A DNA stretch of 64,000 nucleotides, taken from contig NZ_CP126161.1 of NCBI RefSeq assembly GCF_030127105.1, positions 1,054,001 through 1,118,000 of the forward strand, read 5' to 3'. The notes under the pieces were generated by a model. It ran no database searches and was not told where the DNA came from. It was given only the letters and a program-made list of their open reading frames with translations. Origin of the DNA: Haloarcula pelagica. GTDB lineage: Archaea > Halobacteriota > Halobacteria > Halobacteriales > Haloarculaceae. Positions within the stretch are counted from its first letter, which is position 1. Every line of letters begins with the position of its first letter. Of this stretch, positions 48,132-64,000 are shown in pieces. The position numbers and the translations under genes are program-made.

Positions 48132-49337
48132 ATGTCATTAGATACTAGATCATCACAGGCGTCGGCGGATGTGTCGGTACAATCCGACGAGGTACTGGTG
48201 GGGCCGGAGTCGGATATTACACCGACGGTGAGCTTCGTAATGCCCACCATGAACGAAGAGGAGGGCATCGCCGAATGTATCAGTCGCGCTCGGAACGCGC
48301 TCTCGGAACTCGGACTGACTGGCGAGGTCATCATCAGTGACGCCTCCGATGACAGAACCCCCGAGATAGCTCGTGAGATGGGGGCGATCGTCGTCGAACC
48401 CGACAAGCCTGGCTACGGGTACGCATACCGCTACGCGTTCCGGCATACACGCGGAGAGTACCTTGTCATGGGCGATGCCGACACGACCTACGACTTCGAG
48501 GAGCTACCAAAGCTTCTCGCGCTTGTCCGTGACGAGGGAGCAGACATCGCCATGGGAAGTCGACTTGACGGAACGATCAGGCCAGGTGCGATGCCCTCGC
48601 TGCACCAGTACATCGGTAACCCACTGTTGACGAAGTTCCTGAACGTCTTCTACGACGCTGGCGTCTCGGATGCTCACTCGGGCTTTCGGGTGTTCACCCG
48701 GGAGGCCATAGATACCCTCGAACTGGATACTGACGGGATGGAGTTCGCTAGTGAGATGATTATGGATGCCGGTGCTAAGGACCTCGTGATCAAGGAAGAA
48801 CCGATCACGTACCACCCCCGAGAGGGCGAGGCGAAACTTGACAGCTTCCAAGATGGCTGGCGCCACGTGAAGTTCATGCTCGTCAACGCGCCTGGATACT
48901 TGTTCTCTATCCCTGGGTTGGTCATGGGTGTGTTGGGCGTGTCGATCATGGCGCTTGCATACACCGGGACCGCGATTCTGGGCCAACCCTTTGGCATCCA
49001 CTCGCTAATCGCCGGGAGTCTGCTGACGATCCTTGGCTACCATGTCGGAAGTTTCGGGCTGCTGGCGGGATCTATCTCGAACCCCATCCGTCGCCCGGAT
49101 GACCCGATCACGAACTGGGTCCGTGAGCACTTCACGCTGGAGCGGGGTGCGACTTTGGGTGCGGCGCTGTTCCTGCTCGGGTCAGGGATAGCGACGTACC
49201 TGATCTGGCAGTGGTTCGAGAGCGGCTTCACTGATCTCCCGCTGGTATCGGCCGATATCGTCGCATTCACGATGATCGTCCTGGGTATCCAAACAGTGTT
49301 CGGGTCGTTCTTCGCAAGTATCGTGTCGAAATCTTGA
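48132..49337 (+). CDS. GT2 glycosyltransferase (dolichol-phosphate sugar synthase type) with membrane tail
   Basis: The 401-residue enzyme has a GT2 domain (FVMPTMNEEEGIAECI near 32; metal-binding MGDADTTYDF near 112; AHSGFRVFTREA) and four C-terminal helices (about 255-400). It resembles DPM/AglD/AglJ-type transferases that load a nucleotide sugar onto dolichol phosphate on the cytosolic face. It lies 17 bases after the DUF1616 gene and is likely in one transcript with it. Assignment to a named Agl protein is not justified. Confidence 0.88.
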   Translation: MSLDTRSSQASADVSVQSDEVLVGPESDITPTVSFVMPTMNEEEGIAECISRARNALSELGLTGEVIISDASDDRTPEIAREMGAIVVEPDKPGYGYAYRYAFRHTRGEYLVMGDADTTYDFEELPKLLALVRDEGADIAMGSRLDGTIRPGAMPSLHQYIGNPLLTKFLNVFYDAGVSDAHSGFRVFTREAIDTLELDTDGMEFASEMIMDAGAKDLVIKEEPITYHPREGEAKLDSFQDGWRHVKFMLVNAPGYLFSIPGLVMGVLGVSIMALAYTGTAILGQPFGIHSLIAGSLLTILGYHVGSFGLLAGSISNPIRRPDDPITNWVREHFTLERGATLGAALFLLGSGIATYLIWQWFESGFTDLPLVSADIVAFTMIVLGIQTVFGSFFASIVSKS

Positions 49338-49344
49338 TTTTTTG

Positions 49345-50493
49345 TTAGCCATCGATTGCATCGCCGTACCGGTCAAGTGCTTCCTTAGCAACCGTATCCC
49401 AATCGAATCTCCGTGCCCGGTCCACTGGCTCGGTCGCCGGTTGGTAGCCTGAGAGCGCACGTTCGAGTCCCGCACGGACGCCCTCTGTGGTGGGATCAAC
49501 TAAGAGGCCTGCGTCGCCAATGACCTCGTCAACTGCCGATTCGGGGTGATCAGCCGCGACAACCGTACATCCGGCAGCCATCGCTTCGACGGCCGTGATA
49601 CCGAACCCCTCTCTGGTTGACGGTGAGGCGAAAACTCTCGCAGCCTGCATCTGTGCCAGCACGTCGTCGTGGTCCTCGACAAAGCCGAGGAAGTCGATCC
49701 GGTCGCTCGCGTCGAGGCTTTGCGCGAGTCGAGTCAAGCGGTCGGCCTCCGGGCCGTCGCCGATTACGCCGAGGGTGAGATCGTACTCCGGAGCAACTCT
49801 ATCGAACGCCCGTAAAAGGAGGTTAACCCGCTTGTCCTCAATCAGCCGGCCGACGAACAACACGTCATACCCAGGTTCTGCCGGATCGACGCCCCGGACG
49901 AAGTCGTAGTCGATCCCATTGGGGACGACTGAGATACTCTTACGGCTTGGGCCGATACGCGCGAGTCTGTCGGCCGTGTTCTCGGAGACAGCGATAGGAT
50001 GCTGGGGGACAGCCGCCGTGAGTCGTTCTACTGTCTTTCCGCCGAAAGCGAGACGCCCCAGATAGTCGTTCCAGTAGTCGAGCCATACCTCGTGCCACGT
50101 CGTAATCAGCGGTGTGTCGGTTCGCAGGCGAGCGAGGGCGGCAGAGAAGACCGGAAAGTACGGAAAGGTGGATGCGACAAAGGCGTCATGTTCGTCGTGG
50201 TTCCGTCGGAGTGGGCGGAGAGTGTCGATGGCGAATTCGATCGCCTCTGGGATTGACCGGCGATCGTCAGTGTAGAGATCACGTCTGTCGCTGACCGCTC
50301 TGAGTGTCATACCTTCCAGTGTCGTCTCTCGTGGACCGTCCCAGTAGTGGCGACCGTAAACCGTCACGTCGTGACCCTCACGCGCGAGACGGCGACCGAT
50401 CTCGTAGATTCGTTTCTCGGCCCCGCCAGTGACGTACGGGTAGACGACGTTGGAGACGAACGCGATACGCACTGTCGGAATACGGACCGGCAT
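49345..50493 (-). CDS. GT4 family glycosyltransferase
   Basis: A protein of about 382 residues with two Rossmann domains: VRIAFVSNVVYPYVTGGAEK at the N-terminus, and in the C-terminal half DVLFVGRLIEDKRVNLLLRA, VIGDGPEADRL and the GT4 motif STREGFGITAVEAMAAGC (the E-x7-E motif). It transfers a sugar from a nucleotide sugar with retention. The start MPVRIPTVRIAF (50493) is preferred; the frame extends to 50538. It converges with the GT2 gene, separated only by a T-rich run. Confidence 0.88.
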   Translation of the reverse strand: MPVRIPTVRIAFVSNVVYPYVTGGAEKRIYEIGRRLAREGHDVTVYGRHYWDGPRETTLEGMTLRAVSDRRDLYTDDRRSIPEAIEFAIDTLRPLRRNHDEHDAFVASTFPYFPVFSAALARLRTDTPLITTWHEVWLDYWNDYLGRLAFGGKTVERLTAAVPQHPIAVSENTADRLARIGPSRKSISVVPNGIDYDFVRGVDPAEPGYDVLFVGRLIEDKRVNLLLRAFDRVAPEYDLTLGVIGDGPEADRLTRLAQSLDASDRIDFLGFVEDHDDVLAQMQAARVFASPSTREGFGITAVEAMAAGCTVVAADHPESAVDEVIGDAGLLVDPTTEGVRAGLERALSGYQPATEPVDRARRFDWDTVAKEALDRYGDAIDG

Positions 50494-50568
50494 AGGGTAA
50501 TTGTGTTTCGGTGTCGCTGTCATGAGAACCCGAAGCATCTAACTCCGAGGGCTGGGTGATACCGAATA

Positions 50569-51843
50569 ATGGACGGCTACAGGAACGTCGTACTACTAAC
50601 TGTCGACGCTCTCAGGGCGGACCATCTCTCCTGTTATAGCTACGGGCGGGAGACCTCGCCCGCGTTGGATACACTCGCCAAGGAGGGCCTTCGATTCCAG
50701 CGTGCTTACAGCCAGAGTTCCCACACGCGGGAGGCAGTGCCGGCGATGCTGACCGGGCGCGATCCCGACGAGGCTGTCGACGAGCAATATCTCCTCTCTG
50801 CTGATACAGTAGCGAGTCGGCTGGCAGATACTGGTATCGCTACAGCCGGCTTCCACTCAAACCCCTTCGTTTCGCGTGCCTACGGATTCGATCGGGACTT
50901 CGATGTCTTCGATGACGATCTCCACCTCGGCCAGCACAAACTTCTCGCGTTGGCCCAACGCGCCCTCGACAAACTCCGGAACCGCCACTACGCACGTGCA
51001 GATCGGATCAACGAACGGGCGTTCGACTGGCTAGACAGCCGGGATTCAAACCGGTTCTTCCTCTGGAGCCACTACATGGACGTACACGGTCCGTACGAGC
51101 CACCAGAACCGTACCGCAGTCGGTTCGGCGATCCACAGCTGAGTGACCGAGACGCACAGCGGCTGTATAAGCGAGCCATCGACGATCCCGATTCGATTAC
51201 CGCCGACGAACAACAGGCGCTGATTGACCTGTACGACGGCGAAATTGCCTACGTGGACGACCAGATTCGCCGGTTCATAAACGGCTTACGAGAGCGGAAC
51301 CTGTGGGATGAGACGCTCGTTCTGGTCTCGGCGGATCACGGCGATGCCTTTGGCGAACACGGCTACTACGAACATCCGCGCTACCTCCACGAGGAGTTGA
51401 CGCGCGTGCCGTTGCTCGTGCTTGGGGAGGCAGTCGAGGCGGGGTCACCGTCGATTCCCGCGAGTACGGCTGATCTGGTGCCGACAATACTGGACGCACT
51501 GGGTTTCGACGCCAGTGGTCTCAACGGCGAGCCATTTGGGGAACTCGTCGGTTCGGTAGAAGGTTGGTCAGATCGGACAGTGTTTTCACAGGCTCGTGGA
51601 GAGGGGGACGACGACGGTCTCAGGCGGTTCGCTGTCCGCGACCGGGACGGCGAGTGTTTCCTCGAACGCGAACTTTCGACCGGGGAGATACGATCGGAAG
51701 ACACGAGCGACGGAGACCGTGATCTGCTGACCGTACTGCGGGAATACAGCCGCGACCGCATCGACTTCGGGGACGCGACAGCCGATGCGAGCGAAACCGA
51801 AGCGGTGTCAGACCGGCTGGAAGCGCTGGGGTACAAGGAATGA
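50569..51843 (+). CDS. Sulfatase/alkaline-phosphatase-superfamily protein with Thr nucleophile position
   Basis: The 424-residue protein starts with a metal-binding VVLLTVDALRADH (Asp13). The position of the sulfatase Cys/Ser is Thr53 in SSHTREAVPAMLTG, and VSADHGDAFGEHGYYEHPRY supplies the second metal pair and a His. With Thr there, formylglycine cannot form, and the enzyme is more like phospho- or alcohol-phosphate transferases of this superfamily than a true sulfatase. It ends LEALGYKE. It lies between glycosyltransferase genes and may modify the surface glycan. Confidence 0.85.
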   Translation: MDGYRNVVLLTVDALRADHLSCYSYGRETSPALDTLAKEGLRFQRAYSQSSHTREAVPAMLTGRDPDEAVDEQYLLSADTVASRLADTGIATAGFHSNPFVSRAYGFDRDFDVFDDDLHLGQHKLLALAQRALDKLRNRHYARADRINERAFDWLDSRDSNRFFLWSHYMDVHGPYEPPEPYRSRFGDPQLSDRDAQRLYKRAIDDPDSITADEQQALIDLYDGEIAYVDDQIRRFINGLRERNLWDETLVLVSADHGDAFGEHGYYEHPRYLHEELTRVPLLVLGEAVEAGSPSIPASTADLVPTILDALGFDASGLNGEPFGELVGSVEGWSDRTVFSQARGEGDDDGLRRFAVRDRDGECFLERELSTGEIRSEDTSDGDRDLLTVLREYSRDRIDFGDATADASETEAVSDRLEALGYKE

Positions 51844-51893
51844 GTTGGGCTGAAGAGTGCGATATCAAGGGTTGGCGGTGAATAGGAGAACGA

Positions 51894-52964
51894 ATGCACG
51901 TTGGAATTAACGGACGGGCGTTCGTGACCGACGAGCCGGGCGGCGCAGTGCAGACCGCGAAGTGTCTCACGCAGGAACTTATTCGGCGTCCTGACGTTGA
52001 GACGACCCTGTTCGGCCACCAGGCGCTCTCGGACGAGTTCGGCACGGATGTCGAAAGCAAGGGGTATCTCTCGCGGTCACAGTTCTTCGGAGTCGGGTGG
52101 GAGCGAACGGTACTCCCGCTTCTCGCCCGCCGACACGACATCGACATTCTGTTCTGTCCCAATGCCAACGCACCGCTTCACAGGACCCCCTACCCGGTTG
52201 TCACATATATCCACGACGTTGGTGCGATGCACGACTGGTCGTCGTCGGTACATGGTCTGTACCGAAAAACGACTGTTCCACGCGTCGCCGATGTGTCAGA
52301 TCGTATCGTGACGGTCTCGGCGTTTTCGCGGGACGAGATCGTAGAGCAGTTGGGCGTTGATCCGGCTAGAGTCAATGTCGTCCACAATGGTATCAACAAG
52401 CGCTTTCTCAGCGATAAGCCCGGCGAACCTATTGAGGTTCCGGATCAGTTCGTACTCTACGTCGGAGCGTTGAACCCCCGGAAGAACGTCTCCGGACTCG
52501 TAGAAGCGTATCGGCGTGTTAGCGACGACTTTAATCACGAGCTCGTCCTGACAGGCCCACGGAACAAGGAACTGTTCGACTCGTTTGAAATCAGAGAGAC
52601 AGACGACGTACATATGACGGGGTTCGTTTCACAAGAAGAACTGAAGTTTCTCTACGATGAGGCTGACGTGTTCGCATACCCCTCGTTCTACGAGGGATTT
52701 GGGCTGCCGCCGCTGGAGGCGGCGGCGTGTAAGACACCCGTGGTTACGTCCCGAACCGGCGCAATTCCAGATGTTCTCGGCAACGCGGCACGGTACGTTG
52801 ATCCGAAAGACAGGGCAGACATTGGGTCCGCGCTTCTATGGGCTACGAGGAACCCGGCGGCAATGAAGAATACCACGGCAGCACGTCAGCGCGTTCAATC
52901 ACTAACCTGGAAACACGCCGCTAAAGACCTGTATTCGGTTCTCAAAGAGGAGTCGCGGCAATAA
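51894..52964 (+). CDS. GT4 family glycosyltransferase
   Basis: The 356-residue enzyme has an N-terminal acceptor domain (HVGINGRAFVTDEPGGAVQT) with IVTVSAFSRDEIVEQLGV before the hinge, and a donor domain: LYVGALNPRKNVSGLVEAYR, MTGFVSQEELKFLYDEADVF and the E-x7-E motif in SFYEGFGLPPLEAAAC. It is of the mannosyl/rhamnosyltransferase-like GT4 group. It follows the sulfatase-like gene by 50 bases. Confidence 0.9.
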   Translation: MHVGINGRAFVTDEPGGAVQTAKCLTQELIRRPDVETTLFGHQALSDEFGTDVESKGYLSRSQFFGVGWERTVLPLLARRHDIDILFCPNANAPLHRTPYPVVTYIHDVGAMHDWSSSVHGLYRKTTVPRVADVSDRIVTVSAFSRDEIVEQLGVDPARVNVVHNGINKRFLSDKPGEPIEVPDQFVLYVGALNPRKNVSGLVEAYRRVSDDFNHELVLTGPRNKELFDSFEIRETDDVHMTGFVSQEELKFLYDEADVFAYPSFYEGFGLPPLEAAACKTPVVTSRTGAIPDVLGNAARYVDPKDRADIGSALLWATRNPAAMKNTTAARQRVQSLTWKHAAKDLYSVLKEESRQ

Positions 52965-53026
52965 ACACCAACGCATATCAGTATATCTTATTTCCGTGCT
53001 ACAGTGTAAATTATCTGTATAGAACG

Positions 53027-54355
53027 CTACTTCTCCAGATAGTGTCTAATCCGCATGATGATAAGCCCCCCAAATGACAGTATGCTGAAATGCATGGATC
53101 CGAAGGCTATGGGATCAACCCATGTCGGAAGTATCCAACTTGCAGTAAAATGATAATCAAGCCACACACGCTGTAGGCTTTCAACCGACGAAACCTGCTC
53201 AGTACTCGTATTAGTGTCAGAACCGCGGATTTCGTACATCGGTGGGCCCTGTGGCTCGTCACCTAAGCCAGCGATCTCTGCGTCGTAAGGCGCTTGCGCT
53301 ATTTCAGTGGTATTGACTATTTCGCCGTCTGGAGTCACTTCGATCACTCGGTCGTTGCCGGTGTCCACGATCAAGGTATTCCCACTCGGAAGTCGGTCAG
53401 CGTCGCGCGGCCATCGTAACTCATTTTTATATATCCACGTCTGCTTCCACGACCCGTTTCTCCGGGTATACTCAACGATACGATCGTTACCACTGTCAGC
53501 AACAAGGACTGTCGGAGGAGAGTTCGACAGGAGTACGGGATTGTGTTGCTCATGAAGGGTCGAGTACTCGTCTTCAGCACCGAGCGTCCAGCGTGTCTCT
53601 TTAGTCTCCTTGTCGATCAACACCACGCGATCGAACTCGCGTGGACTCAGTAGCACGGCCGAACCGTTATCCACAACATCAACATCATTCAAATGAGTAT
53701 AGTCGTTAGCGTAGCCGTCGCCGGCGTTCTTAGGAAAGTGGTCTACGAACCGATATTCCCAGACGATTTCGTCGCTCGTGGCGTTATAAATGTATACGAG
53801 ATGCGAGTGGGTCTCTCTTGATTCGTTGATCCAACCCTGACGTTTCGCTTCTCGAAGCCACGCTTGCTCGGCACTATCGTGTAGTATCTTGTTAGCGACA
53901 ATGTATCGCCCGTCGCCCAGATAGTCGATATCGTGCGTCTCCGGTGGAACGCTGAACTGTCTGTAGATTTCTCCAGTCGACCTGTTCAGGTGTGTCGCTT
54001 TCCAATTGTACGAGTCGCTTCCGTTGATCTGGAACGGTTTCTTTTCGCCTGTTTTCGAGACAAACAGTGTCTCGCCATCACCAAGTGGATCGACGTCGAA
54101 ACACTTGTTCGGACAGTCGGTCCATTTCCAGATAATTCGATCAGACGATCGGTTGAACGAAAATATGCCCGCACCGAATTCGACTGAAGCACCTTGTGTC
54201 GAGACGAGCAGCGTCTGATTGGGCGGTACTGATGACTCCGTGGACTGAACCGCACTTTCGGCTGTGAGAGCCGCATTGGCAACTGGGAAAAACGAAACGA
54301 TGAGAATGCCTACGAGGACCAACCGAATGGTACGATCATTCATGAATGAAGCCAT
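53027..54355 (-). CDS. Arylsulfotransferase (ASST)-like secreted propeller protein
   Basis: A protein of about 442 residues with a signal segment (TIRLVLVGILIVSFFPVANA), a six-bladed propeller with the ASST marks THDIDYLGDGRYIVANK, THLNDVDVVDNGSAVLLSPR, LHEQHNPVLL and DADRLPSGNTLIVDTGNDRV, and a C-terminal membrane helix (SILSFGGLIIMRIRHYLEK). ASST enzymes move sulfate between phenolic or other esters without PAPS, through an active-site His. His residues in THDID and EQHNP are candidates. It probably acts outside, tethered to the membrane. The start is ATG 54355 or 54343; the longer frame lacks a plausible signal peptide. Confidence 0.72.
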   Translation of the reverse strand: MASFMNDRTIRLVLVGILIVSFFPVANAALTAESAVQSTESSVPPNQTLLVSTQGASVEFGAGIFSFNRSSDRIIWKWTDCPNKCFDVDPLGDGETLFVSKTGEKKPFQINGSDSYNWKATHLNRSTGEIYRQFSVPPETHDIDYLGDGRYIVANKILHDSAEQAWLREAKRQGWINESRETHSHLVYIYNATSDEIVWEYRFVDHFPKNAGDGYANDYTHLNDVDVVDNGSAVLLSPREFDRVVLIDKETKETRWTLGAEDEYSTLHEQHNPVLLSNSPPTVLVADSGNDRIVEYTRRNGSWKQTWIYKNELRWPRDADRLPSGNTLIVDTGNDRVIEVTPDGEIVNTTEIAQAPYDAEIAGLGDEPQGPPMYEIRGSDTNTSTEQVSSVESLQRVWLDYHFTASWILPTWVDPIAFGSMHFSILSFGGLIIMRIRHYLEK

Positions 54356-54610
54356 CAACTCTCTTAACAAAAAAGACTCGAAACGAAAGTTACGGACCGA
54401 ACATAACAATCGTCGGATCCAAACGATCCCTGGCAAATGTGCATCAGCCGCATCGGATGAAGAACGAGGAGACGTGGTTTTTACCACACGAAGCCAAGCC
54501 AACGACTGTTACACTGGCTCGCTCATGTAGGAATTTGCACTGACCTCCGGTGCCACCGGCAGACCGTGACACAGGCTTGAAATCCCTATGCCCCCCGTTA
54601 GTTTCAGAAA

Positions 54611-55921
54611 CTAAGCATATCCCAAGTCCTCGAGTTGTTCTCGCACTGCATCGTTGACATCGGTTCCGGTGCGTTCCAGTTGCGTAGGAACGGTCCCACA
54701 GAAATCTTCTATCAGCTTCTGGTGGGCTTGAAAATCGATACTCTGGGTAGGTCGTTCGACGGACTGGTATCCGTATCCGTCTTCAAGATGCCAGACGCCG
54801 TACAGCGGTTCGTCATAGGTGTCGTACTGATCCGAAACGCCGTAGTTCTCCAACTGTGCTTCGATCCACTGCGGAAGTCCATGGAACTCGGTGAATTGTG
54901 GTTCTGGGTCAAGTGGCGACAACAGTGATCTTCCTCGTCCGTCAGTACGATTTGCGACTCCAAGCAACTCGGCAGCCGTCCGATGAACATCAAGCAAGCT
55001 TACGACCATCTCCGTGTTCTCTTCTGGAACGTCAGCACCCGAGATCACGAGCGGAACGTGAGTTAGTTCAGGAAACAGACCGTGAACGTGGTTCCAGTGG
55101 CCGTGATCACCGAGGAGTTCGCCATGATCTGCAACCGTAACGACATAGTCGACTGCGTCGGCTAGTTCGGTGAATATCTCTTCATAAACATCGGAAAGAT
55201 ACCGCACTGCGTCGTCGTACGCCTGCTGGGCGACCTGTTTATCTGGTGGGTCGTCAGCCCACCTGTCCACGAACACCGGATCGACCGTCTCATCAATGGT
55301 TTGGTACTCCGTAGGCGGCGTGTACGGCGAATGTGCTTCCATGAGGTTGACGAAAATAAACTCCTCATCATCGAAGGAGCTCCTACGGAGCTGGTCACGG
55401 ATTGCACGCGCACCGGAGTCGTCCGAGTCGGTCCTGTCAAGCATAGACGCCTCGTAGCCCTTCTTCAGCGACTGGAGCGTCGGGCCATTGTGTTGGATCG
55501 CAGTCTTCAACGCCTCGAAATACCGCTTCGGTCCAGTTTCGTCGCAAGTGACCGCGAACTGGTCCCAGTCTACGAGGTGTGTTGAATCTGGTTGTTTAAT
55601 CTCCCATGGGGACATCACGTCGTCGTACGGCTCGGTCCACCCCTCAAAATAGCCCATCTGTGGGTTCGCCGAGTAGAACCGCGACGTATGGTTGGTCGTC
55701 ACTCCTCCGAGAGTCGGATAGTCGTTGCCGAGGTCGGTTGACCGTGCGTATGTCCCAACCTCGGAAGCGTACCGGCCGGTGAACAGACTGGCGTGGGTCG
55801 GAATCGTCCAGTTCGAAGTCGTGAGGCATTGCTCAAATCGGGTACCTGGAAGCCAGTTGAAGTGCTCCTCGAAATAGTCTTGACGGAGAGTATCAAGGAC
55901 AACTATTGCAACGGAAGGCAT
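54611..55921 (-). CDS. Sulfatase/alkaline-phosphatase-superfamily protein with Thr nucleophile position
   Basis: The 436-residue protein begins SVAIVVLDTLRQDYF (Asp10), has Thr39 at the nucleophile position (SNWTIPTHASLFTGRY), VTVADHGELLGDHGHWNHVH for the metal-binding Asp-His and a His-rich loop, and ends LEDLGYA. The sulfatase consensus C-x-P-S-R reads T-I-P-T-H here, so neither the formylglycine precursor nor its Arg is present. A phosphodiesterase or phosphotransferase activity on cell-surface glycan is more likely. It is divergent from the next member of the family at 56122. Confidence 0.85.
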   Translation of the reverse strand: MPSVAIVVLDTLRQDYFEEHFNWLPGTRFEQCLTTSNWTIPTHASLFTGRYASEVGTYARSTDLGNDYPTLGGVTTNHTSRFYSANPQMGYFEGWTEPYDDVMSPWEIKQPDSTHLVDWDQFAVTCDETGPKRYFEALKTAIQHNGPTLQSLKKGYEASMLDRTDSDDSGARAIRDQLRRSSFDDEEFIFVNLMEAHSPYTPPTEYQTIDETVDPVFVDRWADDPPDKQVAQQAYDDAVRYLSDVYEEIFTELADAVDYVVTVADHGELLGDHGHWNHVHGLFPELTHVPLVISGADVPEENTEMVVSLLDVHRTAAELLGVANRTDGRGRSLLSPLDPEPQFTEFHGLPQWIEAQLENYGVSDQYDTYDEPLYGVWHLEDGYGYQSVERPTQSIDFQAHQKLIEDFCGTVPTQLERTGTDVNDAVREQLEDLGYA

Positions 55922-56121
55922 ATTATTTCACCGAGTGGAAGAAGATAATGATATTTACGGACTTTTTCATCACTCTTGATACAATGATACGACGGTAATT
56001 ATGCTCACCGAATGCAGTGGACTATTATAAGCCTACTGCTTGTGTGTCTGTGTTGTTGGCTCTGAACCAGGTCGATACAAACATACTTTTATTCACCGGT
56101 GGCTCATTCGCATACGATTGA
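55922..56121. promoter_or_regulatory. AT-rich divergent promoter region
   Basis: Two sulfatase-like genes diverge here. ACTTTTATT at 56085-56093 lies about 30 bases before ATG 56122 and is a good TATA candidate for the plus-strand operon. The minus-strand start has an equally AT-rich approach. Confidence 0.45.
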
Positions 56122-57039
56122 ATGTCCGAAATCAGTTTTATAAACAGAGTATACCACCGTAGCAAACTCTTTTTGCGGAACGCTAACCTCTCATACCTCC
56201 GCTGGAAGCATGGAAATGAATATTACAGAGACGGAGTGGATATACTCTCTGCGGACTGGGATAACCTATTGCTGATGGACGCCTGCCGATACGATATGTT
56301 CGTTGAGCACGTTGACCTTCCGGGCATTCTATCTCGAAAAAAGTCCAAAGGATCGATGACAGCGCAGTTTTTGGCAGGTAATTTCAACGGTCGTGATGCA
56401 ACCGATGTCGTCTATCTCACCGGAAACCCGATGTACCGGCGTATCGAAGCCAACTACGACTTCCAGTTTCATGCCGTAGTAGATGCGTGGCATGAGTGGG
56501 ATGAAGAGAACTCAACTGTCCTCCCGGAAACGATGGTCAGAGAGGCACGTCGGGTGAGAGAGGAATACCCCAATAAGCGACTCCTTGTCCACTTTCTCCA
56601 GCCGCACTTCCCGTTCATCGGCTCCAAAACCAAGTTCGATAAGCAGATTCCAGACCCAAAGGAGGGCGACGAAGCGCAGTTCTGGGAGCAACTTCGCACA
56701 GGGAAGTTGTCACTCTCACCAGAAGAGGTCTGGAAGCCCTACAATAGAAATCTCCGACATCTCGTTCCGTCACTCGAAACACTAGTGAAAGAGCTTGACG
56801 GAAAAACAGTTGTCACATCCGATCACGGAAACATGGTAGGGGACCGGTCACGCCCAATTCCAGTCTCCGACTGGGGCCATCCACGCGGACTCTACACTCC
56901 GGAACTGATTGATGTTCCATGGCTGGTCTGTGACTCGGAAGACCGGCGAAAGGTGGTTGCCGAACCTCCGGAAGGGAATAGCGAGGTCAATGAAGATATA
57001 GTGCAGAATCGACTCCACAACCTCGGGTACACGGAGTAA
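56122..57039 (+). CDS. Alkaline-phosphatase-superfamily protein, 'DACR' subtype
   Basis: A 305-residue protein with NLLLMDACRYDMFVEHV (metal Asp53), a Ser/Thr pair in SKGSMTAQFLAGNF (S78-T80), VHFLQPHFPFIG, VVTSDHGNMVGDR and WGHPRGLYTPELIDVPWLV. It is shorter than sulfatases, lacks the Cys and has an N-terminal soluble extension (about 1-40). It ends LHNLGYTE. Same subtype as 58636-59622. It shares one base with the flippase gene that follows, so its function is probably tied to glycan export or modification. Confidence 0.8.
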   Translation: MSEISFINRVYHRSKLFLRNANLSYLRWKHGNEYYRDGVDILSADWDNLLLMDACRYDMFVEHVDLPGILSRKKSKGSMTAQFLAGNFNGRDATDVVYLTGNPMYRRIEANYDFQFHAVVDAWHEWDEENSTVLPETMVREARRVREEYPNKRLLVHFLQPHFPFIGSKTKFDKQIPDPKEGDEAQFWEQLRTGKLSLSPEEVWKPYNRNLRHLVPSLETLVKELDGKTVVTSDHGNMVGDRSRPIPVSDWGHPRGLYTPELIDVPWLVCDSEDRRKVVAEPPEGNSEVNEDIVQNRLHNLGYTE

Positions 57040-58529
57040 TGAGCGACGAAGTCGAGTCAGCACTACAGTCCACCGCACGGGGTGCGTCAATATTCACCAT
57101 CGGTCGGATCACGAGTCAGCTTCTCGGGTTCGTGTTCAATGCGATACTAACGAACTACCTTGGCCCGATCGGCTACGGGATTATCACATATGCCGACACG
57201 GTCATGATGACGATACTTAACATCGCGGATCTTGGTGCTGACAAAGCACTATTACGTTTCTTACCGGATGACAATCCAGATGAGCGGGAAAATACGCTCG
57301 GTCTCGCTGGCCTTTCGGTTATTCTCGCAGGGGTCGGGTCTGGGGTTATTCTCTACGTGACCGCACCGGTCATTTCCTCATACACCATTGCGAACGATTC
57401 CTTCATTACCGTCCTCCGTGTGATGGCGTTCGTTCTTCCGTTCAGAGCACTCACGAAAATCGTTCAAAGCAGTTTCCGGGCACTTGAGCGACCTACGTAC
57501 CAGTTAGGCATCTCAGAAGGATTGTTACCAGTCTCCCGGTTAGTCGCCGCAATGGTCTCTGTCGTGCTTGGTTTGGCCGTTGAGGGGATTGCTACCGCAC
57601 TGCTGGTCTCTACAATTCTATTGTCTGCTGCCGCCCTGTCGTTATTTCTATCAAGGACTGAACTCCGACCACGTCCGGAAGCGTCTCGTGAACGTATTTC
57701 CCGCTTTTTTTCGTATTCGTTACCATTGACAGTCAATTCGGCCGGCTCGTACCTAGTCAACAATGTTGATCTGATAATGGTCGGGTTTCTTGGCCTTGGT
57801 AGTGCTGCAGTTGGGCAGTATCGTGCTGCTGCTCTGATGACGACCGCAGCGGCTCTCCCGCTCTCCGGCATCAATCAGATATTCCCAGCGCGGGCATCGC
57901 GATTGTTTGATCAAGGACAGAAAGAGGAGTTGGACTCGCTGTATAAAACCGTGACACGGTGGGCACTAACCGCTACGCTTCCAATCGCCGTCGGGTTGGT
58001 TGTGTTCCGGGCACCCCTTTTGTCAGTATTAGGAAGCGAGTTCGTCACTGCGCAGTTCGTACTTGCTGTGCTGTTAATTCGTCGTCTATCAGATGCGGGT
58101 GCTGGGCCATGTGGATACCTACTAATGATGACAGATCATGAACGCTTGGTGACAGCCAATAATGTCATTCTTGGGCTTTCAAACGTAGCTCTCAATTTCA
58201 TATTAATCGCAGAATTCGGTGTGATCGGTGCTGCTGCTGCCACTGCGGCCTCAGTCACAGTATTTAATTTTATCAAGGTATTCGAGGTGTGGTGGTTTGA
58301 ACGATTGGTTCCGTACTCAGGTGCCTTTTTAAAGCCATTGTTTGCAGGTTTGGTCTGCGGGGGAGTGATGATTCTGTTAGAAAGATTGTTGTTATTGGTT
58401 GGCCTTGATATCGGCATGATTCGTGCTTTTGTAGGAGGTATTGTTGGTGTGTGTGCATACCTTATCATATTATATGCACTAGGAGTGGATGAAAAGGATA
58501 AGAAATTGGTTGAGAATTTATATGTATAG
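57039..58529 (+). CDS. Polysaccharide/lipid-linked oligosaccharide flippase (Wzx/MATE-like)
   Basis: The 496-residue protein has 14 predicted helices and the polysaccharide-biosynthesis signature at the N-terminus (ARGASIFTIGRITSQLLGFV, FNAILTNYLGPIGYG). A cytosolic Arg-rich loop (LSRTELRPRPEASRERISRF) and the second-half repeat YRAAALMTTAAALPLSGINQ are typical of Wzx/AglR-like flippases. It turns the dolichol-linked glycan to the outside. The later part of the gene is markedly AT-rich in its third codon positions compared with the core genes at 1-20 kb. Confidence 0.9.
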   Translation: MSDEVESALQSTARGASIFTIGRITSQLLGFVFNAILTNYLGPIGYGIITYADTVMMTILNIADLGADKALLRFLPDDNPDERENTLGLAGLSVILAGVGSGVILYVTAPVISSYTIANDSFITVLRVMAFVLPFRALTKIVQSSFRALERPTYQLGISEGLLPVSRLVAAMVSVVLGLAVEGIATALLVSTILLSAAALSLFLSRTELRPRPEASRERISRFFSYSLPLTVNSAGSYLVNNVDLIMVGFLGLGSAAVGQYRAAALMTTAAALPLSGINQIFPARASRLFDQGQKEELDSLYKTVTRWALTATLPIAVGLVVFRAPLLSVLGSEFVTAQFVLAVLLIRRLSDAGAGPCGYLLMMTDHERLVTANNVILGLSNVALNFILIAEFGVIGAAAATAASVTVFNFIKVFEVWWFERLVPYSGAFLKPLFAGLVCGGVMILLERLLLLVGLDIGMIRAFVGGIVGVCAYLIILYALGVDEKDKKLVENLYV

Positions 58530-58635
58530 ATGGATTGGCGATATGGGTGGTTTGTAAACATCTTACGTTGTAAAGAGAACCCGACCGCCGGACAGAAAGA
58601 TTCAATTGGACATTGGTCTTGTTAACTTAGCAGAG

Positions 58636-59622
58636 ATGGGAGCGGAGTCACTCGAAGAAAAAATCCGCAAGGGTGTAAATAACCCGATCGAGGCCGTGAA
58701 ATATCTCACCACCCCAATTATAAAGGGAACAACACTGACATTGTCATCAAGTTTTCCGCTGGGTGAGAATTTTTTCAAAAAAGATTGGGACCTACTTATT
58801 ATCCTTGACACGTGCCGGCCGGACGCTCTGCGGTCAGTCGCAAGTGAGTACTCATATTTAAACGAGGATGAGATTGGAGAAACCATTTCAGTTGGCACAT
58901 CTACACTCGAGTGGACTGCTGCTACGTTTATAGAGAGATATAAAAATGAGATTTCCGATACCGCTCTTGTTTCTGCAAATGGATGGCCGATGCGGATTCT
59001 TGATGACGGATATCGGCCAGAGATGAGATTTCGGGCTTCTTCGGCGCCGACCAACTGGGGAACTGTTGACAACAGTTCGCTTGGGAGACACATACCAGCT
59101 TGGCGATATGGAGAGGGGCGATCGGGTTACTCTCAGCAGCCCCAAGCGGACGCTGAAACTGTGGTGGATATAGTGATTGATGTCGGTCGAAGAGATGAGT
59201 TTGACCGTGTCATAGCTCACATTATCGAACCACATTATCCGTTCTCTGCTGCAGCAGCCAAACGTGGGGCAGCAGAATTGTCCCAATCGGAACAATACCC
59301 TTGGGAATATGTGAGAAGGACTGGAGATAAGCACACAGTTTGGAATAAATACCTTACTGAACTTCGGTCAGGGCTTGATGCCGTTGGCCGCCTATTGAAC
59401 AATTTTGAAGCGGAGAGGACCCTAATTTCGGCAGACCATGGAGAGTGTTTTGGAGAGTGGGGACGATGGGGTCACACGAGTGGCTCATTCAATCCATATC
59501 TTCGGCGTGTGCCGATTACAGAAGTCAAAGCAAGCGACAAAAATACAAGTGAGCCAGAAATTGGTGTTGAAAACACTGAGATCAATTTAGAAGAAAACTT
59601 GCGCTCGCTCGGCTACATGTGA
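58636..59622 (+). CDS. Alkaline-phosphatase-superfamily protein, 'DTCR' subtype
   Basis: A 328-residue protein: WDLLIILDTCRPDALRSV (metal Asp58), the Ser/Thr group in ISVGTSTLEWTAATF, HIIEPHYPFSAAAAK, ISADHGECFGEWGRWGHTSG, and an ending LRSLGYM. It matches the 56122 protein motif by motif. The ATG at 58636 is chosen; a TTG at 58606 would add ten residues. It overlaps the following GT4 gene by 4 bases. Codon use is AT-rich. The substrate may be a glycan phosphodiester, but activity is inferred only. Confidence 0.78.
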   Translation: MGAESLEEKIRKGVNNPIEAVKYLTTPIIKGTTLTLSSSFPLGENFFKKDWDLLIILDTCRPDALRSVASEYSYLNEDEIGETISVGTSTLEWTAATFIERYKNEISDTALVSANGWPMRILDDGYRPEMRFRASSAPTNWGTVDNSSLGRHIPAWRYGEGRSGYSQQPQADAETVVDIVIDVGRRDEFDRVIAHIIEPHYPFSAAAAKRGAAELSQSEQYPWEYVRRTGDKHTVWNKYLTELRSGLDAVGRLLNNFEAERTLISADHGECFGEWGRWGHTSGSFNPYLRRVPITEVKASDKNTSEPEIGVENTEINLEENLRSLGYM

Positions 59623-60785
59623 AAAAGGAGGTGATTCCGGTGAGAGATGGCCAAACTAAAGTTCTCATATTTACGTTCAGCACAAGGGGAGCCACCAGTG
59701 ATTACCCCGTTAAACTCGCAAACGGTCTTGCTGGCCTTGTGGAAGTCCATGTCGTCTGCCCTGACAGTACAGACATTCAGGAACTATTTCATGATGAAGT
59801 CAGGACTCACCCGTACCAGACGGAGCTGAAGTCCGGGATCCGTTCATTCACGACCGGAATTCAAGGCCTTTCCGAGCAATTCAGGCTTGTGCGAGAAATT
59901 TCCCCGGATGTAATCCACTTCCCATTCCTCACGCCACTCCGGTCGGTGACCCTTCTTCCGCTTCTTGCCACGCTAAAAACGCCGATGGTCGGAACGATAC
60001 ACGACCCAATTTCTCACAGCGGAATGCAAGTTGGACCAAGAAACATGGACCTCGGAGGGCGGGTGAACGCAGTCGCTAGCCACCTTCTGGATCAGATTAT
60101 CGTACACGGGCAGGCCTGCCGGAAACAGGCGTCTGGGCTATGGTACCCGACAGACCGAATCTCGATTGTTCCACATGGACTGTTTGATCACTTTACAGAG
60201 TACGACTACGAGAGTGCACAGACAGAAGATGACACCGTGTTGTTTTTCGGTAATATCAGGCCAAACAAGGGATACGACAGAATCCCAGAGATATTAGATC
60301 GGGTCGAAGAATTCGTTCCAGAAATAACTGCACTCATCGCCGGCAGCCCCTCAAATGCCCGGACTGTCGACACAAATCGTATTGAACGGACCATTAAAAA
60401 GCTTGAAGATGACGACCGGATCGAGTTGCATAATCGGTTTATACCAAATGAAGAAGTCGGGACGTTTTTTTCACGTGCAACAGTGACTGTTCTGCCATAT
60501 TATGATGCCAGTTTCAGTGGTGTCGCAATGATCGCATATGCTTTCGGGGTACCGATAGTCGCGACCGATGTCGGTGATGTTGGCCGTCTGGTACGAGCAG
60601 ATAAGAGTGGAATCGTTACTGAAAACGGGTCGCGCGCAGTGGCAGACGGAATTACAGAACTACTCACAGATGAAACACGGAGGCGAGAATGTCGAGAAAA
60701 TATTATTATGAATCGTAGTCGTTACCAATGGGAGAATATCGCACGCGAAGTCATAGACGTGTATCGAACTGCGGTACAGGAATAA
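59619..60785 (+). CDS. GT4 family glycosyltransferase
   Basis: The 388-residue protein has an acceptor domain (TKVLIFTFSTRGATSDYPVK) and a donor domain with TVLFFGNIRPNKGYDRIPEI, RIELHNRFIPNEEVGTFFSR, and YYDASFSGVAMIAYAFGVPI at the C-terminal motif. In place of the E-x7-E motif the first Glu position is occupied by Asp/Ser (DASFSG), which is seen in some WcaC/WbaZ-like transferases. It starts at GTG 59619, overlapping the previous stop; a GTG at 59640 would also do. Confidence 0.87.
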   Translation: MKKEVIPVRDGQTKVLIFTFSTRGATSDYPVKLANGLAGLVEVHVVCPDSTDIQELFHDEVRTHPYQTELKSGIRSFTTGIQGLSEQFRLVREISPDVIHFPFLTPLRSVTLLPLLATLKTPMVGTIHDPISHSGMQVGPRNMDLGGRVNAVASHLLDQIIVHGQACRKQASGLWYPTDRISIVPHGLFDHFTEYDYESAQTEDDTVLFFGNIRPNKGYDRIPEILDRVEEFVPEITALIAGSPSNARTVDTNRIERTIKKLEDDDRIELHNRFIPNEEVGTFFSRATVTVLPYYDASFSGVAMIAYAFGVPIVATDVGDVGRLVRADKSGIVTENGSRAVADGITELLTDETRRRECRENIIMNRSRYQWENIAREVIDVYRTAVQE

Positions 60786-60832: not shown

Positions 60833-62029
60833 ATGAACGTTCTATTAGTAAACGCTCAGTTTGATACTGACTCTGCAAGTGGCGCGCGGAACTACGTTTA
60901 CAGGACTGGTACGGCACTTCAGGAACGTGGTCACAAGATTTCAGTACTCACGACGAGACCGTATAGCGGTCGAGAGTCGCTATCACCGAGTCGAACTACA
61001 GAGGCAGGACTCGATGTGTGGCGGTTCTATCCGGCAAACCTCTCGCATCGCGGTGAAGGAACAGGCAGAAATCCGGTAAGCAAAGGTCTCTGGCACGGGA
61101 TTGATGCCATCAATCCGCACAGTAGGCATGCGGTCGAAAAAGTGCTAGATCAGATTGAACCGGATGTCGTCCACACCAATAACCTCGTAGGTATCTCACC
61201 ATCAATCGGGAGCGTGATCGCCAATTGGGACGTCCGTCACATCCATACACTCCACGATTACAGCCTGATCTGCCCAAAGAGCAACCTCCTACGAAAACTA
61301 ACCGCCCCTGACGAAGAACGAATCGTCTGTGAAGACCCGCCAGCTCCCTGTCGCCTCCTCGCTCGGCAGAAACGTAAAAGACTTGGGGATCCAGACGTAG
61401 TTACCGGCCCTAGCCAACACGTCATTGATGTACATCGTCGACATGGGTTTTTCAATGACTCACACTGTGAGCGTGTCCAACTAGGCGTGGAATCCGTTGT
61501 TGACCGTCCACAGAGTGTGCCTGATGATCCAGCTCTCCTCTATGTCGGTGCACAAAAGGAGTCAAAAGGTCTCGATACGCTCTTTGCGGCTGTAGAACAA
61601 CTTCCCAACGTAACCACTCATATTTGTGGAGATGGGCCCTATGCCAATGTAACCGAACGTCGGGCATCCGAACTGGACAACGTGGTGTATCACGGGTTCG
61701 TCTCCGAGGCAGAACTCACCCGCCTCAGGCAAGAATCAACTGCTTCGGTCGTTCCATCAATTTGGATGGAAAATTCACCATTAACGATTTACGAAAGTTT
61801 CGCGGCTGGGCTCCCCGTTGTCGGCAGTGACATCGGTGGAATTCCGGAGCTTGTCGCAGATGGGAAACGCGGCTACACGTTTGAGCCGAAGTCTACCAGC
61901 GGATTCGTCGAAGCGATAGAACAGATACTCGATCACGGACCAGATATGCGGGCAGCAGTCCTCAGGTGGGCAAGGCAGCGGACCATCGAGACACACGTTA
62001 GCAATCTCGAAACCCTCTACACCGGATAG
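60833..62029 (+). CDS. GT4 family glycosyltransferase
   Basis: A 398-residue GT4: MNVLLVNAQFDTDSASGARN, HTNNLVGISPSIGSVIANWD with HIHTLHDYSLICPKSNLLR, and the donor half LLYVGAQKESKGLDTLFAAV, HICGDGPYANVTERRA, and E-x7-E motif MENSPLTIYESFAAGLPV. An internal Cys-rich stretch (RIVCEDPPAPCRLLARQ), seen in some GT4 proteins, lies between. TTAAATATC at 60793-60801 serves as promoter, so it begins a new transcript after the previous GT4 gene. Confidence 0.9.
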   Translation: MNVLLVNAQFDTDSASGARNYVYRTGTALQERGHKISVLTTRPYSGRESLSPSRTTEAGLDVWRFYPANLSHRGEGTGRNPVSKGLWHGIDAINPHSRHAVEKVLDQIEPDVVHTNNLVGISPSIGSVIANWDVRHIHTLHDYSLICPKSNLLRKLTAPDEERIVCEDPPAPCRLLARQKRKRLGDPDVVTGPSQHVIDVHRRHGFFNDSHCERVQLGVESVVDRPQSVPDDPALLYVGAQKESKGLDTLFAAVEQLPNVTTHICGDGPYANVTERRASELDNVVYHGFVSEAELTRLRQESTASVVPSIWMENSPLTIYESFAAGLPVVGSDIGGIPELVADGKRGYTFEPKSTSGFVEAIEQILDHGPDMRAAVLRWARQRTIETHVSNLETLYTG

Positions 62030-62097: not shown

Positions 62098-63867
62098 TTA
62101 CTCCGGCGGGGTACACCGAGACAGGCGAACAACGCCGTTGTCGTAGAGCACGCTATTATCTAGTTGTGAGGTTTTTATTTCAGCATCGGGTCGAGAAGAC
62201 TGGAGAGTCCGGCAATCGTAGTCTGATCCATATGCCAGTCTATATATACCATTCTTGAGCCAGACGCCAGTCTCCTCCCCGACAACTTTTCCATCTCCAT
62301 ACTTTGCTACCCAGTCACTCGCTGCAAACTGGGACTCGGTAAAATGCTCTTCTTCTAAGGTTGGTTCCGTCGCATCAGTGTACAGCACATCAGGGGAAAC
62401 CAGTATGAGTTGGGTCAATGCTACCAACACAACAATCACCGCAAGCACCAGTCTGCCACGGCTGAAAGTCTCTTTACGGGTAAGCGTGAATCCAAGAGCC
62501 ACCAATAGCGTCGGAACCATATAGACGAGATATCTGGAAGGGTCAAGCGGTACTATCGGTCCGAAGACTACAGAGATTCCATAGCCGAGTGCCATAACGG
62601 CACCGAACGAACCGGTCACGACTTGCCAACGGTCTCGTCCGGCCGACAGGGAACGAAGTCCAATAACGACGCTCCCCAAAACGGAGAGGAGAAGCAGATT
62701 CGAAGGGAGGAACCGCCAGTGGTTTCGGAGGTACTGAATGGCCGGATGTGACACGAGATCATTATCAGATTCCCCCGATGATTCTGTCATTGGAGTGTCG
62801 ACAGGCGAAGTCGAGGGAGTTCCTCGGGTTCCTTTCGGCGTGGACGTGGACGGGGCTGATTCTGCTGTCGGAGTTGGATCTGCTGAGCGAGGGGTTTTAG
62901 TCCCATCAGAAGTCGGTGTGGACGGTGACTCTGCTGTTGGCGTCGGTGTTGCCGTACTATCACTGGGTTCCGGTGCACTCTCACCGCCAAAAGATGGGAG
63001 ATCAACCGTGGAAATTAGACGAAGCAAAAACTGGGGGGCAATAACAAGAAACATACCTACAAACAATCCACCTGAAAGGGCAGTAATCCCCGAGAAGGGG
63101 ATTTTCTTCTGTTTCATAACTGTTTGTAATTTGTCAGAGTCTGTGAGATCCCAGAGGACAAGTAAAAATACCGTGAGAAATCCGATATAATGGTGAGCCA
63201 GGACCGTCGCAGTAGCGAAGAGGTAGCAGAGGTATTTCGCAGGGCGTCCATCACTAGCTATCAATCGTAGCGACAAGAGTAACGCGAAAAAGAGGACGAA
63301 GGCCAGCGATTCGTCAATAAATTTGATTTCAAAAGTGAATAGAGTCCGAACACCAACGAGCCCCATGGCAACGAGGAAAGCAGAGTCATCATCAATCAAC
63401 TTGCGTGCAAACGCGTAGAGCATGGTCGGGACAATCAGCGTAAACAAGGGGAGAAATCGGCCGAATGAAGATATTTCACCACCAGTTAAGAATTTGATAA
63501 TCCAAACGAGAGCGTAGAAAGCCGGCCAAGACGCTCTTTTACCGGCAATCCATAGAGGTCCGTGCTCTCGGAACTCAACCGTCGTTTGTAATGTACGGTA
63601 CGGGTCATAGCCGTAGAATCCGACCTCCAATGGATCAACGACGAGAAGCGCAGGCAATAGAGGTGTTGCGATCAGCAGTGCAACGTTGATACTTATGGGT
63701 GTATTGTGTCGAAGGACTAGTGCGGTCGGGAAAACGAAGAGAGTTCCAAGCAGTAGATACAGTGTTACAGTTGGAACACTGCTCCCATGCTGGAATCCGA
63801 CGAGTGCCGAAACGGCGTACAGCAAGGAGTACACAATCAGGGCCAGTTTTGTGTTCCTATTCATCAT
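62098..63867 (-). CDS. Large multi-pass membrane protein, glycosyltransferase-like (GT-C type)
   Basis: A protein of about 589 residues with about ten helices, an N-terminal hairpin and loop VGFYGYDPYRTLQTTVEFRE carrying acidic/Tyr residues as in GT-C transferases, and a Ser/Thr/Pro-rich extracellular insertion (SAPEPSDSTATPTPTAESPS and following, about 295-375). The C-terminal soluble part ends QLDNSVLYDNGVVRLSRC. It resembles the DUF2206-like/oligosaccharyl membrane proteins of halophiles, and may polymerise or transfer dolichol-linked sugars outside. Start could be GTG 63876 or ATG 63867/63864. The preceding gene overlaps its start. Confidence 0.7.
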   Translation of the reverse strand: MMNRNTKLALIVYSLLYAVSALVGFQHGSSVPTVTLYLLLGTLFVFPTALVLRHNTPISINVALLIATPLLPALLVVDPLEVGFYGYDPYRTLQTTVEFREHGPLWIAGKRASWPAFYALVWIIKFLTGGEISSFGRFLPLFTLIVPTMLYAFARKLIDDDSAFLVAMGLVGVRTLFTFEIKFIDESLAFVLFFALLLSLRLIASDGRPAKYLCYLFATATVLAHHYIGFLTVFLLVLWDLTDSDKLQTVMKQKKIPFSGITALSGGLFVGMFLVIAPQFLLRLISTVDLPSFGGESAPEPSDSTATPTPTAESPSTPTSDGTKTPRSADPTPTAESAPSTSTPKGTRGTPSTSPVDTPMTESSGESDNDLVSHPAIQYLRNHWRFLPSNLLLLSVLGSVVIGLRSLSAGRDRWQVVTGSFGAVMALGYGISVVFGPIVPLDPSRYLVYMVPTLLVALGFTLTRKETFSRGRLVLAVIVVLVALTQLILVSPDVLYTDATEPTLEEEHFTESQFAASDWVAKYGDGKVVGEETGVWLKNGIYRLAYGSDYDCRTLQSSRPDAEIKTSQLDNSVLYDNGVVRLSRCTPPE

Positions 63868-64000
63868 TACTTTCACCGGATAAAAAGCAGTTTCTGAGTC
63901 GCAGTCCCCAAGGTCCAGCCATGTCAGACCAAGATTCAGTCGGTTTAAAGTCAGTTTTGATATCGGTTTCCCGAAAAGGTTGGAGATAGGACGCGAAGTC
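63857..64000 (-). CDS. C-terminal fragment of a gene cut by the window edge
   Basis: From base 64000 leftward the minus strand is open for 47 codons to a TAG at 63857-63859, reading YLQPFRETDIKTDFKPTE, WSDMAGPWGLRLRNCFLSGE and SNDE. It ends inside the start of the membrane-protein gene, overlapping it by about 11 bases, so the two are translationally coupled. Protein-like composition and tight coupling support a real gene. Product not recognised. Confidence 0.5.
   Translation of the reverse strand, partial: DFASYLQPFRETDIKTDFKPTESWSDMAGPWGLRLRNCFLSGESNDE

Follow-up and report, generated by a model that had tools for sequence, protein, structure and literature searches.

The closest known counterparts of the genes studied here are VNG1056C (Agl30) and VNG1057C (Agl31) of Halobacterium salinarum, two alkaline phosphatase (AlkP)-like proteins encoded in the aglB cluster and reported to be N-glycan sulfotransferases (PMC11980604). 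In that report, deletion of either gene reduces sulfation of the tetrasaccharide, on a glycan defined as sulfated by nuclear magnetic resonance (NMR), and expression of either protein in Haloferax adds a sulfate-sized mass. Agl31 is soluble there, and Agl30 behaves as a membrane protein. Agl7 of Haloferax volcanii is reported to be required if a lipid-linked glycan is to be sulfated (PMC3871713, PMC5867893), and in Halorubrum sp. PV6 a gene annotated as a sulfatase lies near aglB and one glycan sugar is called ‘sulphated/phosphorylated’ (PMC6137143). Here we describe four genes, S1 to S4, in a 64,000-nucleotide stretch (G000:C1:1054001-1118000, hereafter the window) of the 4.46 Mb genome of the haloarchaeon Haloarcula pelagica. 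An initial annotation had read them as four sulfatase homologues that cannot be formylglycine sulfatases, and had suggested phosphate-linked decorations on the surface glycan.

Our best explanation, to which we give about an even chance, is that S1–S4 are AlkP-superfamily group transferases of N-glycan or surface-glycan assembly. Sulfate is the most likely group for S1 and S2, because it is the group reported for Agl30 and Agl31; for S3 and S4 sulfate is only somewhat likelier than a phosphodiester. The part of this explanation that removes S1–S4 from the sulfatases, and makes them probable transferases, is well supported. As far as the published description goes, Agl30 and Agl31 share with S1–S4 the AlkP-like core superfamily, a C-terminal Leu-Gly-Tyr (LGY) tail and a location in an aglB-anchored glycosyltransferase cluster; the cloning primers printed in PMC11980604 encode the C-termini HLEDLGYL (Agl30) and LEELGYT (Agl31). 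Agl31 is soluble, as predicted for S1–S3, whereas the membrane behaviour of Agl30 differs from S1–S4, which have no transmembrane segment.

Family membership, nucleophile and folds

S1 and S2 pass the cut-off of the Pfam model PF00884 (25 bits) with 162 bits (E 2.6e-47) and 68 bits (E 1.1e-18), respectively. S3 reaches 17.2 bits, below the cut-off, and S4 gives no match. When a profile of 57 S3/S4-family sequences was compared with a profile of 26 S1/S2-type sequences, the two matched with 99.5% probability (E 2.6e-22), and judged by this comparison the remote kinship of S3 and S4 to the superfamily of S1 and S2 is real. S3 and S4 form a separate haloarchaeal family of ~300 residues within that superfamily; Pfam and NCBIfam contain no dedicated model for it, and 32 of its 57 members match PF00884 weakly (best E 4.8e-5). 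The description as four sulfatase homologues holds directly for S1 and S2, and for S3 and S4 only through the profile-profile link.

The formylglycine motif, C/S-x-P/A-x-R, is absent from all four proteins. The residues at its position are T-R-E-A-V in S1, T-I-P-T-H in S2, T-A-Q-F-L in S3 and T-L-E-W-T in S4. Profile alignment places T100 of S4 on T39 of S2, with T80 of S3 in the same column, and in the structural models of S4 and S2 a helix begins at the nucleophile residue (helices 100-107 and 39-48). The nucleophile column holds Ser or Thr in 57/57 S3/S4-family sequences and Cys in none (25 Ser and 5 Thr in the S4 group, 23 Thr and 4 Ser in the S3 group). Metal-type residues are kept as well: D13, D10, D53 and D68 in S1 to S4, together with a DHG motif in each, and D68, H210, D277, H278 and H290 are invariant throughout the S3/S4 family. 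The invariant S75/S95 was considered as the S3/S4 nucleophile and dropped, since T80 and T100 are the residues that occupy this position in the aligned profiles and at the starts of the helices. From their sequences, S1–S4 cannot be formylglycine sulfatases. The initial annotation was right on this point, as it was in assigning Thr53 to S1, Thr39 to S2 and Ser/Thr, never Cys, to S3 and S4, and transfer through Thr as the likely chemistry is also supported.

The S2 model (predicted local distance difference test score, pLDDT, 76.6) adopts the whole fold of carbohydrate sulfatases and phosphonate monoester hydrolases (PMHs), including the second subdomain. Its best 50 listed fold matches are all sulfatases or PMHs (Z 33.5-28.0); neither EptA nor LtaS is among the matches listed, although we do not count a fold family missing from that list as excluded. 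The model superimposes on BT1596 (5g2t; Z 33.0, root-mean-square deviation (rmsd) 2.4, 324 residues aligned) and on FA22070 (6hhm; Z 32.3, rmsd 3.0, 342 aligned), the structures named in PMC11980604 as closest to Agl30/VNG1063H and Agl31. Among solved structures, the sequence of S1 is also closest to sulfatase/PMH entries (4upl, E 1.1e-23), and its matches to EptA/MCR entries do not go beyond E 1.6e-9. Formylglycine sulfatases and PMHs (PF00884, the family of sulfatases known as S1; for example BT1596, SpAS2 and EfAS) resemble this group in the full two-domain fold of the S2 protein and the shared profile of the S1 protein; they differ in the Cys of C/S-x-P/A-x-R, where S1–S4 have Thr, and S1–S4 are further distinguished by the LGY tail and the biosynthetic context.

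None of the four proteins contains a transmembrane-like segment, a twin-Arg motif or a lipobox, and the highest hydropathy over 19 residues is 0.52-1.19. The lack of an anchor or signal is consistent with a cytoplasmic site of action, like that of the soluble Agl31, and at odds with EptA and LtaS, which are anchored and face outward.

Thr/Ser-type and Cys-type proteins in haloarchaea

The H. pelagica genome encodes 14 PF00884 proteins, of which two carry C-S-P-T-R (C2:138586 and C2:140923), ten have Thr and two have Ser; S1 and S2 belong to the 12 Thr/Ser-type proteins. The sole gene for a formylglycine-generating enzyme (FGE) lies at C2:143239, beside the two Cys-type genes and on a different contig from S1–S4. 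PF00884 matches were found in 38 of the 41 genomes searched and FGE in 8, so that 30 genomes have PF00884 proteins without FGE. In all 8 FGE-bearing genomes, H. pelagica included, the best PF00884 match is of the Cys type. FGE presence does not account for every Cys-type protein, however, as 7 of the 14 relatives with a Cys-type best match have no FGE match. In these genomes without detected FGE (L022, L023, L026, L030, L031, L034 and L036), six of the Cys-type sulfatases read C-S-S-A-R and one C-R-P-F-R.

We compared the C-termini in a census of 43 PF00884 proteins, comprising the 14 above and one protein, the best match, from each of 29 genomes out of the 37 others with matches, a choice that favours the Cys type. 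An [LM]GY tail ends 27/27 Thr/Ser-type and 0/16 Cys-type proteins (Fisher p 3.8e-12). In the tree of the census proteins a single change separates the two types (shuffled mean 13.2), with a Shimodaira–Hasegawa-like approximate likelihood ratio (SH-aLRT) support of 94; the tree was made by a quick method, has several long branches, S2 among them, and of S1–S4 its Thr/Ser clade covers S1 and S2. In the larger alignments the tail stands at the end of 57/57 S3/S4-family and 26/26 S1/S2-type members, and S1–S4 all carry LGY. On these data, in which 27/43 proteins are of the Thr/Ser type, most haloarchaeal genes named ‘sulfatase’ are not sulfatases. The nucleophile residue and the tail together provide a simple test for telling genuine formylglycine sulfatases apart from probable transferases of glycan assembly, and its use would correct many annotations.

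Among 195 genomes of the order, 165 encode an S3 homologue and 156 an S4 homologue. At 42 of 58 S3/S4 homologue loci, the ~1.5 kb flanks encode a relative of the window's glycosyltransferases, its flippase, S1–S4 or its arylsulfotransferase (ASST)-like protein; none of 11 control stretches from the window had such flanking relatives, in what is a small control from one genome. Our literature searches yielded no published function for S3/S4 relatives beyond the negative result for VNG1063H discussed below. Short S3/S4-family relatives with LDACRxD and S-x-G-x-x-T-x-x-W are also encoded on environmental viral contigs (L130-L147); some have the LGY tail, and most are truncated before the tail position.

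Sulfate, phosphate and alternative activities

We propose a two-step transfer. An anionic group would first move from a donor to a metal-activated Thr (T53, T39, T80 or T100), forming a covalent ester; it would then be transferred to a hydroxyl on a sugar of the lipid-linked glycan while this still faces the cytoplasm, so that decoration precedes flipping and the AglB-type transfer. The Thr ester, its donor and acceptor, and the identity of the group as sulfate are what we infer here. If S1 and S2 are sulfotransferases, one must ask by what mechanism, and with what donor, a fold associated with sulfate removal attaches sulfate in cells where no pathway to 3'-phosphoadenosine-5'-phosphosulfate (PAPS) was detected. 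We speculate, tentatively and with the balance of probability against it, that the sulfatase/AlkP fold has become, in haloarchaea, the basis of a large set of transferases that decorate glycans. A Thr/Ser nucleophile and the LGY tail would mark this set, whose members would form Thr-O-sulfate and of which S3/S4 would be a second branch moving sulfate or phosphate. The donor would be one other than PAPS, because PAPS-making genes went undetected in the H. pelagica genome.

Several points weigh against sulfate, or against carrying the H. salinarum result over to this locus. The likeness of Agl30 and Agl31 to S1–S4 is drawn from primer-encoded peptides and the published description, and the shared LGY tail is three letters only, which shows kinship, not function. 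The primers do not fix the family of Agl30 (VNG1056C: p 0.456 and 0.10; 4/60 and 1/60 shuffles), nor do the quantitative PCR (qPCR) primers of Agl31 when mapped on the profiles. VNG1063H can be placed: its qPCR primer peptide VHYFQPH fits the S3/S4 profile with a score of 29.0, against a null maximum of 20.9 (p 0.002; 0/60 shuffles), and corresponds to the conserved VHYxQPHxP that reads VHFLQPHFP in S3 and AHIIEPHYP in S4. Its deletion is reported to have no effect on tetrasaccharide sulfation (PMC11980604) and hence gives no function for S3/S4. The findings in H. salinarum thus favour sulfate for Thr/Ser-type proteins as a group, without assigning a function to the S3/S4 branch. Sulfate and phosphate differ in mass by about 0.0095 Da. 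The masses printed for the Haloferax expression do not separate the two (PMC11980604). ATP-sulfurylase (PF01747) was not found in the H. pelagica genome and is present in 2 of the 41 genomes searched; an adenosine 5'-phosphosulfate (APS) kinase search of the former returned only a partial P-loop match, and CysD matches fell below the cut-off. With no canonical PAPS-making genes detected, the sulfate donor is unexplained. These undetected sulfate-activation genes, together with the unseparated masses, are the strongest remaining argument for phosphate. The same genome contains many sulfatase-fold genes despite having no PF01747, no convincing APS kinase and weak CysD-like matches.

The initial annotation had derived phosphoglycerol or phosphoethanolamine transferases, adding phosphodiesters to the surface glycan, from the Thr nucleophile. 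S1–S4 do share this Thr and the DH metal motif (DHG) with EptA/MCR phosphoethanolamine transferases and LtaS, and S4 also shares the core fold: its model (pLDDT 90.5) finds its closest structural match in EptA (4kav; Z 15.6, rmsd 3.1, 210 aligned), by a narrow margin over the arylsulfatase EfAS (Z 14.5, rmsd 3.6, 210 aligned), which again speaks against sulfate. ‘LTA synthase family protein’ is the annotation on 2 of 25 listed rows of S3 relatives, and VNG1063H, which has no InterPro family, has such annotations among its relatives. To these can be added the undetected sulfate-activation genes and the ‘sulphated/phosphorylated’ wording for a haloarchaeal sugar in PMC6137143. EptA and LtaS, however, have a transmembrane anchor, which S1–S4 lack, and S1–S4 have no sequence match to their families above cut-off; the best 50 listed fold matches of S2 are all sulfatases or PMHs; and the Agl30 and Agl31 deletions are reported to affect sulfate on an NMR-defined glycan (PMC11980604). 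We therefore regard phosphodiester transfer by the four proteins as unlikely, if credible. The step from a Thr nucleophile to phosphoglycerol or phosphoethanolamine is unsupported, and phosphate-linked decoration is outweighed for S1 and S2 by the sulfotransferase precedent; it stays credible, above all for S3 and S4, given the narrow EptA lead and the lack of a VNG1063H effect. Comparison of predicted structures with EptA and LtaS, which the initial annotation had suggested, narrowly favours EptA in the case of S4 and not in that of S2. The remark that the chemistry is ‘little described in haloarchaea’ passes over published accounts of sulfatase-type genes in glycan clusters of these archaea (PMC6137143, PMC11980604); no paper on haloarchaeal glycan phosphodiesters was evident from titles or abstract openings, which does not by itself establish that they are undescribed.

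Hydrolysis is a less probable activity than transfer. Phosphodiesterases, or phosphonate/phosphate monoesterases like the PMHs and the nucleotide pyrophosphatases/phosphodiesterases (NPPs), could trim or recycle glycan or nucleotide-sugar intermediates: sulfatase/PMH entries (4upl, 4upi, 4uph and 2vqr) are among the S1 sequence relatives or S2 fold matches, the phosphodiesterase model PF01663 matches S1 (E 6.2e-10), and S2 has a T-x-P-x-H that we take to resemble an NPP-type motif. PMHs use a formylglycine Cys. That residue is absent from S1–S4, and a biosynthetic context with genes overlapping a flippase and a glycosyltransferase, and four copies in one cluster, make hydrolases quite improbable here. 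YejM-like proteins with a metal site exist, and an NCBIfam YejM-like model matches S1; regulatory or structural pseudoenzymes would nevertheless be very surprising, with the nucleophile and metal positions kept in 57/57 S3/S4-family members. It is scarcely more probable that S1–S4 are sulfatases in which Thr or Ser acts directly, without formylglycine, to remove sulfate. The complete carbohydrate-sulfatase fold of S2 would suit such an activity, and a choline sulfatase with unmodified Cys keeps slow multiple turnover (PMC6189696), but EfAS C61A is dead, and the 20-35% activity retained by C61S was attributed by its authors to formylglycine conversion (PMC12421950). The location in an assembly cluster and the separation of the Thr/Ser clade from the Cys clade also argue against removal of sulfate.

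Attempts to find the H. salinarum genes through their primers gave little. The Agl30/31 qPCR-primer patterns, exact or near-exact, occur in 0 of 392 genomes of the order, in no stretch of genome_contigs and in 0 of 13 genomes of a genus taken, as a guess, to be Halobacterium, and a degenerate start-codon primer search gave 5 matches, all unrelated bacterial. The exact HLEDLGYL tail is present in two of the genomes in this presumed Halobacterium genus; we did not call the gene Agl30, as it belongs to a tandem pair there, whereas the deletion primers suggest a convergent arrangement in H. salinarum.

Gene layout and genomic setting

The location of S1–S4 among glycosyltransferases and a flippase is as the initial annotation described it, and the cluster also adjoins an AglB-like gene (Table 1). 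S3, the flippase, S4 and the following GT4 gene are probably one transcript, because the ends of S3 and S4 run into the starts of the flippase gene and of the next glycosyltransferase gene, respectively. An ATG at 58636, in frame with the TTG at 58606, is a possible alternative start of S4. A sequence search of the ASST-like beta-propeller protein against solved structures gave no ASST match.

Table 1. S1–S4 and the surrounding features; coordinates are window positions unless a contig is given.
Feature	Coordinates	Strand	Description
S1	50569-51843	+	424 aa; Thr-type PF00884; nucleophile T53, codon 50725-50727; tail RLEALGYKE
S2	54611-55921	-	436 aa; Thr-type PF00884; nucleophile T39 in T-I-P-T-H, codon 55805-55807; tail QLEDLGYA
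S3	56122-57039	+	305 aa; short AlkP-superfamily; likely nucleophile T80, codon 56359-56361; tail RLHNLGYTE
S4	58606-59622	+	338 aa from TTG; short AlkP-superfamily; likely nucleophile T100, codon 58903-58905; tail LRSLGYM
Polysaccharide flippase	57039-58529	+	PF01943/PF13440; start overlaps S3 end
GT4 glycosyltransferase	59619-60785	+	start overlaps S4 end
GT4 glycosyltransferase	60833-62029	+	
GT4 glycosyltransferase	51894-52964	+	50 bp after S1
GT4 glycosyltransferase	49345-50538	-	divergent from S1
GT2 glycosyltransferase	48132-49337	+	
Beta-propeller protein	53027-54502	-	weak ASST match (PF05935, E 2.4e-9); directly downstream of S2
Membrane-type protein	62098-63876	-	592 aa; no Pfam match; between cluster and AglB-like gene
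AglB-like gene	G000:C1:1118006-1121059 (L047:4006-7059)	-	1017 residues; stop 6 bp past window end

The AglB-like gene matches the AglB_L1 profile (E 2.8e-5) and, just under the cut-off, STT3 (E 3.6e-5). It appears to be a diverged paralogue of AglB that carries a Laminin-G-type domain at its C-terminus and in which GNDP and DHH segments are kept and the WWDYG position reads LSNWGRN. The canonical AglB, with WWDYG, is encoded elsewhere (C1:354159-357203), and three PF00884 genes of the Thr/Ser type lie no more than 9 kb from it. A further glycan island at C1:1231-1250 kb (L123, G000:C1:1230001-1250000) contains two Thr/Ser-type PF00884 genes, one S3-type and two S4-type genes, together with GT4 genes, a flippase, an epimerase, a methyltransferase, an asparagine synthase and a Wzy_C match below the cut-off. 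In another genome (G130, locus L119), a single aglB cluster with glycosyltransferases, an S4-type gene, a flippase and a convergent S1-type gene echoes the layout of the window.

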